From: Maribellus sediminis
Lineage (GTDB): Bacteria > Bacteroidota > Bacteroidia > Bacteroidales > Prolixibacteraceae
Length of the DNA stretch: 64,000 nt
Assembly: GCF_011799805.1 (NCBI RefSeq)
Contig: NZ_WXUB01000002.1
Location: 1 to 64,000, forward strand
Direction of reading: 5' to 3'
Positions 33,405 to 38,439 of the stretch are shown in pieces. Both the position numbers and the translations under genes were made by a program. The notes under the pieces are model-generated. The model saw only the letters and a list, made by a program, of their open reading frames with translations. It was not told the origin of the DNA and searched no databases. How positions within the stretch are numbered: the stretch's first letter is position 1; every line of letters starts with the position of its first letter.

Positions 33405-33716
33405 GATATATACAAAGAAAACAGATAAATGCAGAACTTTGAAATGCTTTTCGCAATATTTAATGCTGGTCGGTAAAAATGGGTGTATCTACGCCAAAAT
33501 AGCCTTTCGCTCTGCAAAATGGGTATTTCGATCTTCAAAAAGCTACTAAATACTCTTTTATTAGGGTGTTTGTGGTGCAAAACCAGTGAATCAAATTCGT
33601 AGAATAAAATTACCGTTCGCAGATGTTCGTATGTTGCTTGCTGAATTAAGTGGCGCTGCATCAAAGTCTTATCTATATTTGATTACGAAAACAATAAACA
33701 ATTAAAACAGTAAATC
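33405..33716. other. Noncoding gap with a promoter at its right end
   Basis: 312 bp with no convincing gene. A minus-strand frame of about 95 codons (33377-33664) overlaps the preceding gene and shows no family. TATATTTG at 33674-33681 is a -7 box for the gene at 33717. Confidence 0.5.
33674..33681 (+). promoter_or_regulatory. -7 box for exported protein gene
   Basis: TATATTTG, full TAnnTTTG match, 36 bases before the ATG at 33717. Confidence 0.5.
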
Positions 33717-34208
33717 ATGAAAACAAGATCAGTTCTTTTAGCAATTTGTGTCATTCTTCTTAGTGTAGTTGCCAATGCAAAAATTAAAGACGGACAATCA
33801 ATGAGTGGAAATTCATTGAGTGAATTAGGACAATACACTATTACGCACTCTGAAGCACCTATCGTGTTCGACAACCAGGTTCTTGAAACTTACGATTTGA
33901 GGTATGAAAATGCAACCAACGGAGTTAAAATAGCAGTGGTGGACGAGAAAAAATGCAAAACTTTCATTGTACGCAACGACGATTTCGAAGTTCAGTACAA
34001 CTGTCAGAACGGAGTTTTTGGAGTAAAGAAAATTGAAAAACGTTTCCAGGAAATTCCTGAAGAAGAAATGAATATGAAATTAAACAGGGTAAGTTACTAT
34101 TCACAACGCGTAATCTGCCAGGGTAAAAAATCAACCGACGATTACCTGGGATTGATTGCCTGTTACTTCCCTGAACTGGTAAATGAAGAATACCAGGCAA
34201 ATTTCTAA
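33717..34208 (+). CDS. Exported protein of unknown function
   Basis: 163 residues. Signal peptide MKTRSVLLAICVILLSVVANA, then a soluble domain with four Cys. The order (TYDLRYENATNGVKIAVVDE, CKTFIVRNDDFEVQY, GVFGVKKIEKRF) suggests a beta-rich fold. I do not recognise a family. It has its own -7 box and two terminators in series downstream, which points to an abundant monocistronic transcript (inference). Confidence 0.7.
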   Translation: MKTRSVLLAICVILLSVVANAKIKDGQSMSGNSLSELGQYTITHSEAPIVFDNQVLETYDLRYENATNGVKIAVVDEKKCKTFIVRNDDFEVQYNCQNGVFGVKKIEKRFQEIPEEEMNMKLNRVSYYSQRVICQGKKSTDDYLGLIACYFPELVNEEYQANF

Positions 34209-34494: not shown

Positions 34495-35538
34495 GTGTAT
34501 CAAACTTTGATTTCTGAAACAACAAAAAAGACAATAACCCGAATCAGTCTGCATGTGGCTTTTTGGGCGTTTTATGTCTTGTTTTTTGGCCTGTTTTATG
34601 GCAAATACGGTAAGAACTACAATCAGCATCTAATTGAGACAGCTGTAATGTTACCATTTGTAATGTCGGCCACTTACCTTACAATTTACGGTATTTTGCC
34701 TTCGTATCTGAAAAGCAGGAAACTTCTGAAAAACTTCGTTCTAATCGTACTTCTAATGTTTTTTACGACCATTGGCGAAGCTGTTTCTCTGATGATCATT
34801 AGCGGAGTGCCGCTTACCTTTGGTGCGATTTTCGATTTAACGTCGATATACCTGCTGCTGGAAACAAACTTTATGGTGGCCATTGCTTTTGTCATCAAGT
34901 TTTACAAATTGTGGCACGAGCAGCAGGAAGAAAAATACAAGATTGAAAAACTAAACCTCGAGAAAGAGCTCAATCTTCTAAAAGCACAATTGCATCCGCA
35001 TTTCCTTTTTAACACCATGAATAACCTCTATGCACTATCTTTGGAGAATAAGACAAAAACATCGGAAGGCATTGCAAAAATATCCGATCTTCTGCGCTCG
35101 GTTTTGTATGAATGTAACGAACGCGAAATACCGCTGGAACGCGAGATAGGAATTATTCAGAATTACATTGAACTGGAAAAAATGCGGTATGGCGATCGTC
35201 TTCGTATAGATTTTAAGGTAGATGGCGATGTTACGCGTATGAAAATAGCTCCGATGATTTTGTTCACATTCGTTGAAAACTGTTTCAAACATGGGTGTTC
35301 ACCCGATCCGGATCGTCCATATATAAATATCGGCATAAAGCTACAAAACGGACAGTTTCAATTTAGAACTAAGAACAGTCAACCCAAAATTCAGCGCGGC
35401 TCCAATTCAAAGAAAAAGGGTGGAGTTGGCCTTGCAAATGTGAGAAAACGGCTTGAAATTTTATATCCCGGAAAGTATGAGTTAAATTGCATGGGTGATG
35501 AAATATGTTACAATGTTTCGTTAACGCTGAGGCACTAA
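34495..35538 (+). CDS. LytS-type sensor histidine kinase 1
   Basis: 347 residues. About four TM helices (residues 18-138), coiled linker 140-165, then the His_kinase/LytS domain: phospho-acceptor His169 in LHPHFLFNTMNNLYALS, and N-box Asn262 in FVENCFKHG, G-box GGVGLANVRKRL. Autophosphorylates and passes the phosphate to a LytTR regulator. Starts at GTG 34495, with AGGGA about 7 bases ahead; no nearer ATG fits. First gene of an operon of three kinases and a LytTR regulator, ended at 35538, one base before the next start. Confidence 0.9.
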   Translation: MYQTLISETTKKTITRISLHVAFWAFYVLFFGLFYGKYGKNYNQHLIETAVMLPFVMSATYLTIYGILPSYLKSRKLLKNFVLIVLLMFFTTIGEAVSLMIISGVPLTFGAIFDLTSIYLLLETNFMVAIAFVIKFYKLWHEQQEEKYKIEKLNLEKELNLLKAQLHPHFLFNTMNNLYALSLENKTKTSEGIAKISDLLRSVLYECNEREIPLEREIGIIQNYIELEKMRYGDRLRIDFKVDGDVTRMKIAPMILFTFVENCFKHGCSPDPDRPYINIGIKLQNGQFQFRTKNSQPKIQRGSNSKKKGGVGLANVRKRLEILYPGKYELNCMGDEICYNVSLTLRH

Positions 35539-35539
35539 A

Positions 35540-36637
35540 ATGAGAAAGCTTTTGTATGATAACTCGTTTGCATACCGGGGAACCAGGCATCTCCTGTTTT
35601 TTTCGTTAACGGTACTGTTGTTTTCTGTCATTCTGTACAGTCAGAACAATAGTGGAAAGTACTTTCACTTTCTTCTGGTTACTTTTATAAATGCCATTTT
35701 CTTTTTCGGTTACGCCTATCTAACCATTTTTTTGCTTATCCCTGAATTTCTCATTAAAAAGAAAATCGGGATTTTTATTTTGTTGTTCGTGCTCGTAGGA
35801 TTCGGACTTTCAGCTGTAAAGTTGCTTGCTTCCGGAACCATTTTCTATGCCTCCATTTCGCCTGAAAATATGACTGGAGAAGAGTACTTCGATTTGCGGC
35901 TTATTCTGGTCAACACCAAGGACATGTCGTTTATAGTAGCCGTATTTTGTATTGCCAAATACATAAAGGATTTTATTTATGCCGAACGAATACGCAGCAA
36001 TCTGGAACAGCAACAAAAAGCCGCCCAGAAAAAACTTCTGGGCTCGCAGTTCGATCCGCATTTCATGTTCAATACCATAAATAACCTGTATGCCCTTTCT
36101 TTGCTGAATCCCGGGAAAACCAGGGAAGTTATTTTCAGAATTAAAATCGTACTGAATTATATTATCGACGAAAGTCAAAAGGAATTTGTGGACTTAGCAC
36201 AGGAAATTTCGCTGGTCGAGAATTACATTCAACTTGAAAAACTACGATATGGGAAACGCTTGAAAGTCAGTTTCGACTGGGTAGGAGAAGTTGAAAACAC
36301 ACGGATTCCTCCAATGATACTCTTCTTTTTGGTTGAAAACTGTTTTAAACACGGCAGCAGTTTAGATGCCGGAGTTCCGTGGATACAAATTAATGTGAGG
36401 GTTGAGAATGATAAAATTCGGTTGACTACCGAAAACAGCAAACCCAGATCGGTTATTGAAAAAAAAGGAAATGAGCTGGAAGGCGAAGGTTTTAAAAACC
36501 TCGTTAAACGGCTAAAAATATTATATACGTCCGAAGGTTATTCTTTGCGTATTGAAAACCACGAGGATATTTTTAAAGTTGACCTTGAGCTATTAACAAA
36601 GCATAATGTTGAGATTTTACAAACAACATATCGATAG
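35540..36637 (+). CDS. LytS-type sensor histidine kinase 2
   Basis: 365 residues. Four TM helices in residues 17-140, then His174 in FDPHFMFNTINNLYALS, Asn267 in LVENCFKHG, and a G-box-like EGEGFKNLVKRLKILY. Both catalytic positions are present, so it is likely active. It follows kinase 1 after one base and overlaps kinase 3 by 32 bp. Compared with kinase 1 the H-box flanks diverge (DPH rather than HPH), so the two are paralogues of some age. Confidence 0.9.
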   Translation: MRKLLYDNSFAYRGTRHLLFFSLTVLLFSVILYSQNNSGKYFHFLLVTFINAIFFFGYAYLTIFLLIPEFLIKKKIGIFILLFVLVGFGLSAVKLLASGTIFYASISPENMTGEEYFDLRLILVNTKDMSFIVAVFCIAKYIKDFIYAERIRSNLEQQQKAAQKKLLGSQFDPHFMFNTINNLYALSLLNPGKTREVIFRIKIVLNYIIDESQKEFVDLAQEISLVENYIQLEKLRYGKRLKVSFDWVGEVENTRIPPMILFFLVENCFKHGSSLDAGVPWIQINVRVENDKIRLTTENSKPRSVIEKKGNELEGEGFKNLVKRLKILYTSEGYSLRIENHEDIFKVDLELLTKHNVEILQTTYR

Positions 36638-37643
36638 GAATGACATTCTGATGCACATCCTTTTCTGGATGACCTGGATATTTTCGTTTGTGATTATTCA
36701 GAGTCTTGGACATGGAAGGCACGAATATTTTGTATGGCTGATGTACTACCTGATTACATTGCCCATTTTTGTTGTACATACCTATCTGATCGCGTACTGG
36801 CTGGTTCCGGCATTCTTTTTCCGACGTCACTATTTAATGCTAACAATAATTGGTTTGGCATTTCTGGTTATTTTTTCGGTGATTGAGCTGGTGGTCAGCA
36901 ACGAGTTGGTTTTTAAAGTCTTCGATCCAAAGAAAGCATTCAGTCCCGGATACCTCAATCTGAAGAATATTTTGATCAGCGGATTGGGCAATCACTACAT
37001 CATTTTTGTTTTTTTGGCCATCAAAGCCGGAAAGTCGTGGTACAGTTCAGAGCAGCGAAAAGACGAACTTTTGCTCTCGAGTGTTGAAACGGAACTGGAG
37101 ATTTATCAGTACCAGTTGCAGCCAAAACTTATTTTATCGCTGGTTGAACAGATGGAACAGCTGGCGCATCAGCATCCCGAAAAAGCGCCCCAAATGATTG
37201 TTAAGATCTCGGGCTTCCTAAACCGCTTTCTTTTCGAAGGGAAAGAGGATTTGATCTCTTTACAGCTTGATGTAAATCTTTTGCAGGAATACCTCGAAAT
37301 CCATCGTGTGGCATTGGATGATCGATTAAAACTGAATTTTGTTGTAAGCGGTAACCTGAAGCCCTATGTTGTTCCACCGCTTTTATTGCTCCCGTTTTTA
37401 TACGAATCGTTAAAAATTGTTTACGCGTGTAACAATTCATTCGAAATTTCAGTCCTTATAAAGACGGAGCGTAATTACCTGCTAATCTCTTTTTCGGTAT
37501 GGAGTGATAACGATTTCAGAATAAACGATGATAACGATTTAGAGATTACCAGAAAACGCTTGAATTACAGGTTTCGTGGTAAACATCGATTGATAGAAAA
37601 CATCGATGAGAATTTTCGTGAGATCAGCCTCGAGATTTACTAA
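36606..37643 (+). CDS. LytS-family pseudokinase (kinase 3)
   Basis: 345 residues with the same layout as the two genes before it: four TM helices (residues 13-140), linker, LytS domain. The aligned H-box reads YQLQPKLILSLVEQMEQLA: the phospho-acceptor His is Lys174. The N-box reads FLYESLKIV: Asn is Glu267 and the preceding Glu is Tyr266. The G-box is gone (DNDLEITRKRL). So it cannot work as a normal kinase, yet the fold is intact and the gene undamaged. A role as partner or sensor for kinases 1 and 2 is inferred. ATG 36606 overlaps kinase 2 by 32 bp, suggesting coupling. Confidence 0.85.
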   Translation: MLRFYKQHIDRNDILMHILFWMTWIFSFVIIQSLGHGRHEYFVWLMYYLITLPIFVVHTYLIAYWLVPAFFFRRHYLMLTIIGLAFLVIFSVIELVVSNELVFKVFDPKKAFSPGYLNLKNILISGLGNHYIIFVFLAIKAGKSWYSSEQRKDELLLSSVETELEIYQYQLQPKLILSLVEQMEQLAHQHPEKAPQMIVKISGFLNRFLFEGKEDLISLQLDVNLLQEYLEIHRVALDDRLKLNFVVSGNLKPYVVPPLLLLPFLYESLKIVYACNNSFEISVLIKTERNYLLISFSVWSDNDFRINDDNDLEITRKRLNYRFRGKHRLIENIDENFREISLEIY

Positions 37644-37719
37644 TGATGATTTGTAACATTTTTTTCCTTATATTACTAATAGAATAGCTAGAACAGAAAA
37701 CAAAACTACCGTGTTATCC

Positions 37720-38439
37720 ATGAAAACTAAGTGCCTCATTATCGATGATGAGCCTCTCGCGCGCGATTTGATGCGGAGCCACATCGAAAAACTTGAAAAT
37801 TTTGAAATTGTCGCTGAATGTGGCGATGCAATGAAAGCTCTCCAGGAATTACGAAATAATTCCATCGATCTCATGTTTATGGATATTCAGATGCCGCAGA
37901 TTACCGGTATCGAATTCCTTAAAACACTTAAAAACCCCCCAAAAGTCATCCTTACAACGGCCTATCGGCAATATGCAATCGATGGGTTTGAACTGGATGT
38001 TGTTGACTATTTGTTAAAACCCATTACTTTCGAACGTTTCCTGAAAGCCGTAAACAAATACTACGAATTAAGCACCGATGAATCGATGAGCAACGGTTCG
38101 GTGGTGATGCACAACCATAGTAATGGTGAAGAAGCCTTTATTTATGTGAAGGAAAACAAGAAAGTATTAAAAGTTCATCTGAATGATATCCTCTATCTTG
38201 AAGGATTAAGTGAGTATGTACAGATTTACACCGAAAACAAAAAGATCGTTACAAAAAACAGCATGACCAACATGGCCAGTAAATTGCCCGACACTGAATT
38301 TATGCGCATTCATAAATCGTATATTGTTTCTATGTCGAAAATACAGGCTTTTACGACAAGCAGTGTTGAAATTCCGGGGAAACAGTTGCCCATCGGACGG
38401 AGTTACAAAAACTCGGTCATTGAAGCGCTTCAGGTATAA
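37720..38439 (+). CDS. LytTR response regulator
   Basis: 239 residues. Receiver domain 1-120 with acidic pocket Asp9/Asp10, phospho-acceptor Asp55 (LMFMDIQMP) and Lys in LLKPI; LytTR DNA-binding domain about 135-239 (IYVKENKKVLKVHLNDILYL, FMRIHKSYIVSMSKI). It is the cognate regulator for the three kinases just upstream, 76 bp away. ATG 37720 (MKTKCLIIDDEPLARD) is chosen over GTG 37711. Target genes unknown; LytTR proteins bind direct repeats upstream of transport or cell-wall genes. The stop overlaps the convergent gene by 10 bp. Confidence 0.92.
   Translation: MKTKCLIIDDEPLARDLMRSHIEKLENFEIVAECGDAMKALQELRNNSIDLMFMDIQMPQITGIEFLKTLKNPPKVILTTAYRQYAIDGFELDVVDYLLKPITFERFLKAVNKYYELSTDESMSNGSVVMHNHSNGEEAFIYVKENKKVLKVHLNDILYLEGLSEYVQIYTENKKIVTKNSMTNMASKLPDTEFMRIHKSYIVSMSKIQAFTTSSVEIPGKQLPIGRSYKNSVIEALQV

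Follow-up and report, generated by a model that had tools for sequence, protein, structure and literature searches.

A candidate LytS-type pseudokinase maintained with a neighbouring histidine kinase in Maribellus sediminis and its relatives

The window considered here is a 64,000-nucleotide stretch of DNA from Maribellus sediminis (contig NZ_WXUB01000002.1, positions 1 to 64,000 of the forward strand). It contains a cassette in which three genes for LytS-type membrane kinases, referred to as K1, K2 and K3, precede the gene for a single LytTR response regulator (RR). All four genes lie on the forward strand with intact frames. Here we report that K3 has the features expected of a histidine pseudokinase and that, as judged from sequence comparison, it is kept under selection together with K2 and more faithfully than K1. 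The genes of the cassette are as follows.

34495..35538, forward strand: K1, a canonical LytS-type membrane kinase with His169, Asn262 and a GxG motif
35540..36637, forward strand: K2, a LytS-type membrane kinase with His174, Asn267 and GxG; the constant neighbour of K3
36606..37643, forward strand: K3, a LytS-type pseudokinase with Lys174, Glu267 and no GxG; membrane helices and a predicted kinase-like fold
37711..38439, forward strand: RR, a response regulator with a receiver and a LytTR DNA-binding domain; phospho-acceptor Asp kept

K1 and K2 are separated by one base, K2 and K3 overlap by 32 bases (with the first ATG as start), and 67 bases lie between the K3 stop and the start of the regulator gene; gene starts were taken as the first ATG, GTG or TTG, so that all spacings are approximate. 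The three kinases match PF06580 above its curated cut-off of 25.2 bits (K1 85.9, K2 69.3 and K3 35.4 bits), and the regulator matches Response_reg and LytTR, with its phospho-acceptor Asp intact in all 61 aligned regulators. With a kinase beside a LytTR regulator whose Asp is intact, K1 and K2 and the adjoining regulator can be assigned to the LytS/LytTR two-component systems. K3 carries the PF06580 domain and none of the His, Asn and GxG that mark a LytS-type kinase.

These observations bear out an earlier note on this DNA, which had described three tandem LytS-type membrane kinases with one LytTR regulator at the coordinates and spacings given above; the His (169, 174) and Asn (262, 267) that it assigned to kinases 1 and 2 are confirmed by alignment. 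Its account of kinase 3 also stands as regards Lys174, Glu267, the missing G-box and the intact frame, while the claimed alignment without gaps depends on the sequences included: when the three kinases are aligned alone, a 10-column gap opens ahead of the N-box, and in larger alignments K174 falls in the column of the His and E267 in that of the Asn. The genome of the window holds 19 PF06580 matches, of which K3 is the only one without the His. Because the other 18 proteins keep it, and because the loss recurs in relatives, the missing His of K3 is not the result of chance. The same genome also encodes two pairs of adjoining large PF06580 sensors, with open frames of 962 to 1044 amino acids (L149-L152; G000:C7, about 163500-171500 and 329000-337500).

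Orthologues of K3 were found in 42 of 140 genomes of the Prolixibacteraceae, the window included, in a search set assigned to that family through its named kin, Maribellus and Draconibacterium, with Maribellus luteus a member of the Prolixibacteraceae; 41 of the orthologues scored at least 247 bits, and one distant orthologue (genome G115) scored 150 bits. When 393 genomes of the order were searched with a profile, K3 was recovered outside the family in four genomes, all of one other family (f8), at 197 to 239 bits and well clear of the remaining matches. In a search of 395 genomes of the phylum, a match at E <= 1e-40 was obtained in 26, the window's own counted, and the best other match scored 185.5 bits; both of these wider searches scored at most five candidates per genome. 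No further K3 was found among 30 lower-scoring matches that were fetched (L115-L144; 11 from the order search, L115-L125, at no more than 170 bits, and 19 from the phylum search), all of which keep a PHFxFN-type His motif and adjoin a regulator. The resulting set of 46 K3 rows consists of the window, L036-L076 and the four f8 loci. The frame is open in all 46, and the protein is 345 amino acids long at all 29 loci of the window's genus. A quick tree built from 96 chosen kinases groups the K3 proteins of both families in one clade (support of 100 in the Shimodaira-Hasegawa-like approximate likelihood ratio test, SH-aLRT) and the K2 proteins of both families in another (SH-aLRT 100); K1 (98) and an additional kinase, K4 (100), described below, form separate clades. 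Since K2 and K3 each constitute a single clade across two families, the K2-K3 pair either predates the split of these families or has passed between them.

Among the 46 K3 rows, the His is absent in 45, the Asn in 43 and GxG in every one, and no row has both His and Asn. The site of the His is occupied by Arg in 22 proteins, by Lys in 14 and by other residues in 10 (including the one His), and because the residue there varies, no other phospho-acceptor is under selection at this position. K1 keeps His, Asn and GxG in 18 of 18 rows (one of these, L095, lies at another locus, as a 35% relative), and K4 keeps His and Asn in all 16, of 17, rows that cover both sites. In K2 the Asn is kept in 45/45 rows and GxG in only 27/45; of the 44 rows that cover the site of the His, 43 have it and one, L047, has Asp. 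As read from these alignments, K3 lost catalysis before the two families split, or before its spread between them.

Loss of these residues has not been accompanied by a release from constraint. In seven disjoint pairs, to which 41 close pairs were reduced, the pooled ratio of nonsynonymous to synonymous substitution rates (dN/dS) was 0.116 for K3, 0.116 for K2 and 0.044 for the regulator, with the K2/K3 overlap of about 10 codons left in. By region, the values for the membrane, DHp and kinase-like parts were 0.112, 0.082 and 0.151 in K3 and 0.125, 0.061 and 0.137 in K2, the region borders here and in the identity comparisons being the analyst's choice. Identity averaged over the 780 pairs of 40 loci was 0.580 in K3 and 0.577 in K2 for the membrane part, and 0.517 and 0.481 for the ATP-binding part. 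K3 is thus constrained along its length without its catalytic residues, and 28 of the 31 columns that are invariant in 29 K3 proteins fall within residues 17-136, in the membrane part. A relaxation limited to the ATP-binding region of K3 was considered and not seen; the lower identity relative to K2 lies in DHp. The proposal of the earlier note that kinase 3 is selected as a non-catalytic protein is supported by this purifying selection, and where that note had allowed for absence or decay of kinase 3 in relatives, an open K3 is present in every family genome that has K2.

An AlphaFold2 model of K3 (mean predicted local distance difference test score, pLDDT, 88.2) shows four helices, three of them long and the last very long and continuing into DHp, followed by a kinase-like domain; in the PDB it is matched best by the GanS kinase domain (6swk, E 2.5e-7). 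With the predicted fold kept, the catalytic residues lost and the gene under selection, K3 can be placed, on sequence and model, among histidine pseudokinases of the DivL and FasC kind.

The genomic distribution of K3 follows that of K2. Within the 140 family genomes, those with K2 are those with K3, apart from G044, in which K2 is cut by the contig end; K4 was taken to account for the matches to K2 at 34-35% in G015, G016, G029 and G031 and for the weaker of two in G130, because it fits them better. Of 40 fetched loci, 27 have an overlap of 29 or 32 bases between K2 and K3, 12 a spacing of -1 to +6 bases and one a spacing of 69. K1 is present at 17 of the 42 family loci, absent from 23 and contig-cut at two (L036 and L045; in the genome of L045, G010, K1 precedes K2 on another contig). 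In genomes without K1 at the locus, no K1 was found elsewhere at E <= 1e-70, and no remnant of it was found between K2 and the upstream gene, UP (see below), in the 21 testable stretches of the 23 K1-less loci. The order K1-K2-K3-regulator occurs at 15 of the 42 loci, K2-K3-regulator alone at 17, and the extra kinase K4 at eight, two of which also have K1; of the remaining two loci, one is distant, with a degenerate K2 and K3 only, and the other is contig-cut. The gene order singled out by the earlier note thus recurs exactly at those 15 loci, but since K2 and K3 share genomes while K1 is absent at 23/42, the conserved unit is the pair of kinase and pseudokinase. The three-kinase cassette was rejected as that unit, K1 being dispensable.

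K4 sits after K3 at L038-L042 and L044-L046, and at seven of these eight loci it is followed by a lipoprotein-like protein and then by the regulator; L044 is cut. At L080-L086, K4, the lipoprotein-like protein and the regulator occur without K2-K3. The lipoprotein-like protein, of about 580 amino acids, belongs to other genera (L038:2547-4292, L041:7642-9378 and L046:2552-4291; also L039, L040, L042 and L045), and of three scanned copies two score above the cut-off for peptidase families M2 or M32, the copy in L046 lying just below.

At all four loci of the second family, f8, K2-K3 and the regulator gene diverge. K2 there keeps the His (in a motif that reads PHV) and the Asn and has no GxG, and K3 is without the Asn in 4/4 and without the His in 3/4. 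A gene downstream of the pair encodes a kinase that has no membrane domain and is 219 to 233 residues long; its His and Asn are present in 4/4 and GxG in 3/4.

L145:421-1122, L146:5444-6103, L147:8380-9039 and L148:8402-9085: soluble LytS-type kinase of f8, adjoining a UP homologue

The UP homologue of L145 is represented only by its end, at the contig start (27 bits). The gap between K3 and the soluble kinase contains no same-strand stop-free run longer than 98 codons, and therefore no full membrane domain in one frame. Across both families, kinases that appear competent from their motifs (K1, K4 or the soluble one) come and go around the K2-K3 pair.

Two further features lie upstream of the cassette in the window.

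33717..34208, forward strand: UP, a putative secreted protein of 163 amino acids; signal-like N-terminal stretch judged by eye
33596..33622, forward strand: candidate direct repeat of the LytTR type, TTCGTAG-N13-TTCGCAG, located ahead of UP; a post hoc pattern

UP is found directly upstream of the cassette at 37 of the 42 K3 loci, and beside the regulator at three kinase-less loci. It has no Pfam family, and its best PDB fold match reaches only E 0.48; when its homologues were sought in the 140 family genomes at E <= 1e-10, 107 had matches, many of which are weaker copies elsewhere. LytTR regulators prefer about the spacing of this direct repeat. The strict form, a direct repeat of the type TTTGCAG-N14-TTTGTAG, occurs upstream of UP at 11 of 46 loci, compared with a mean of 0.05 in 20 shuffles, by a pattern that was defined post hoc, after part of these sequences had been viewed aligned; between UP and the next gene a repeat is found in 1 of 43 stretches only. 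The pattern TTYGYRG-N13-14-TTYGYRG has 26 sites in the window's genome versus seven for a reversed control, so the repeat is not specific to the UP promoter, and it may represent a wider LytTR or promoter motif. We consider UP most likely to be a target, or a partner, of the regulator.

The sequences establish catalytic loss, conservation, purifying selection, a single clade, co-occurrence with K2, and losses of K1 that leave K3 in place. We propose that K3 is probably a non-catalytic sensory subunit that forms a heteromer with K2 and sets the phosphorylation of the regulator, acting through K2 as a receptor or allosteric subunit. K3 appears to retain its membrane sensor, a helical bundle that resembles a DHp, and the outer framework of a kinase domain. 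The overlapping genes would supply K2 and K3 at matched levels for the assembly of heteromers, in which K3 may sense a ligand or the state of K2, and would thereby set both K2 autophosphorylation and phosphorylation of the single LytTR regulator. The regulator in turn probably controls the neighbouring gene UP, and K1, K4 or the soluble kinase of f8 could add an exchangeable input or ATP-binding domain.

Several observations weigh against this proposal. Dimerisation would be expected to occur through DHp, yet mean pairwise identity there is lower in K3 (0.498) than in K2 (0.642) over the same 40 loci. The predicted template modelling score (pTM) of the K3 model is only 0.59, and its domain arrangement is uncertain. 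Co-occurrence of K2 and K3 is also expected from adjoining genes in one probable operon. At L077, L078 and L088 the regulator and UP occur without a kinase, and neither K2 nor K3 was found in these genomes at the thresholds used; because such loci exist, the pair is not needed everywhere. An Asn is present at the N-box column of three K3 proteins (L036, L052 and L055), and the His is kept in one (L145), the single departure from the rule that the earlier note had asked about, whether kinase 3 lacks it throughout its relatives. Finally, K2 is itself without His at the distant locus L047.

L047:5732-7957 (genome G115), at 34% identity, carries a K2-K3 pair in which both members are without His (Asp and Glu, respectively), followed by the regulator and a UP-like gene, and it possibly encodes two pseudokinases.

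A more specific form of the K2-K3 heteromer, which we put forward as doubtful, is a split histidine kinase in which K3 only senses, K2 carries the His, and the ATP-binding domain comes from an exchangeable kinase (K1, K4 or the soluble one), with the consequence that K2 may lose its G-box. K2 keeps GxG at 16 of 17 loci without a competent partner kinase versus 11 of 26 with one, where the 26 include the four f8 loci (0/4 GxG) and L036, L045 and L047 are left out; inclusion of L047, which has neither partner nor GxG, would change the former count to 16/18. These raw counts are suggestive, but the data contain only three independent switches and a paired test gives p = 1, so a link between the K2 G-box and a partner kinase is not established, and the idea that the two are tied was set aside.

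K3 might instead have no contact with K2 and, switched by its own sensor, serve the regulator as a phosphatase, a sink or a scaffold. Contact between K3 and the regulator is plausible, given the predicted kinase-like fold, the retained sensor and a gene that ends 67 bases before that of the regulator, and the Asp kept in 61 of 61 regulators fits such an action. However, K3 travels with K2 and not with the regulator, since family genomes that have the regulator and no K2 are also without K3 at the thresholds used, and DHp, the would-be contact with the regulator, is the region in which K3 is less conserved than K2. We regard this role as unlikely.

In its kinase-like region K3 is conserved to about the same degree as K2 (identity 0.52 vs 0.48; dN/dS 0.151 vs 0.137), and because this is so although the ATP motifs of K3 are gone, the region probably keeps some function. 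Such conservation would fit a reversed flow of information as in DivL, with the degenerate kinase-like domain reading the phosphorylated regulator, or another protein, and feeding back on K2 or K1. The conservation could be structural only, however, and no surface or partner is pinpointed by it; we see this reversal as quite improbable. That 28 of the 31 invariant columns fall between residues 17 and 136, in the membrane part, could also mean that K3 has left two-component signalling altogether, as a membrane protein of another function kept through its coupling to K2. Yet K3 still matches PF06580 and is predicted to fold as a kinase, and its neighbour is a LytS kinase with the His in 43 of 44 covering K2 rows, which makes a departure of this sort very improbable. 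Decay into a pseudogene, or a recent local loss, would explain the missing catalytic residues and is refuted by 46 open frames in 46 rows, a length of 345 amino acids at 29/29 genus loci, a dN/dS equal to that of K2 and a single clade over two families.

The usual view of a histidine kinase is that of a homodimer, and a kinase that has lost catalysis tends to be written off as a decaying gene. With an apparently dead LytS kinase preserved beside one live kinase in dozens of genomes, the question of dedicated non-catalytic receptor subunits in bacterial kinases becomes directly testable, and the presence or absence of further kinases in this small gene set provides natural experiments. Among the matches listed from the open-licence PubMed Central literature, as titles and abstract openings, no LytS pseudokinase is described.

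DivL of Caulobacter is not known to be of the LytS type, to share an operon with its partner kinase CckA or to involve a LytTR regulator. It resembles a kinase, requires neither its His nor its ATPase function, and regulates another kinase (PMC4211667; cited in PMC9491836). In Corynebacterium glutamicum, a dead variant of ChrS promotes activation of the regulator through the paralogous active kinase HrrS; native ChrS and HrrS heterodimerise, and with truncated ChrS no heterodimer was seen (PMC9491836). That variant is a truncation from laboratory evolution (PMC9491836), whereas K3 is full length and old. The BtsS/BtsR and YpdA/YpdB systems of Escherichia coli likewise each join a LytS-type kinase to a LytTR regulator and together belong to one network, but unlike here each kinase has its own regulator, and no pseudokinase is named in the text considered (PMC5552118, PMC10653868).

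From the portions of this literature considered, the closest known counterpart of K2-K3 is the FasB/FasC pair of the FasBCA system. The FasB and FasC kinases belong to another kinase family. In group A Streptococcus, two-hybrid evidence points to FasB-FasC heterodimers, in which FasC, the sensing partner, is a proposed pseudokinase (PMC12675982). As at the locus described here, two kinase-like sensors and one regulator are encoded in one operon (PMC12675982). Unlike K3, which is without His, Asn and G-box beside a K2 that keeps the His, FasC retains its phospho-acceptor His246, which matters in that system (PMC12675982). A pseudokinase that keeps its phospho-acceptor His is thus a FasBCA trait that K3 does not share, and because FasC keeps its His, K3 goes a step beyond it; the layout in these Bacteroidota, unlike that of FasBCA, can also add a third, exchangeable kinase.

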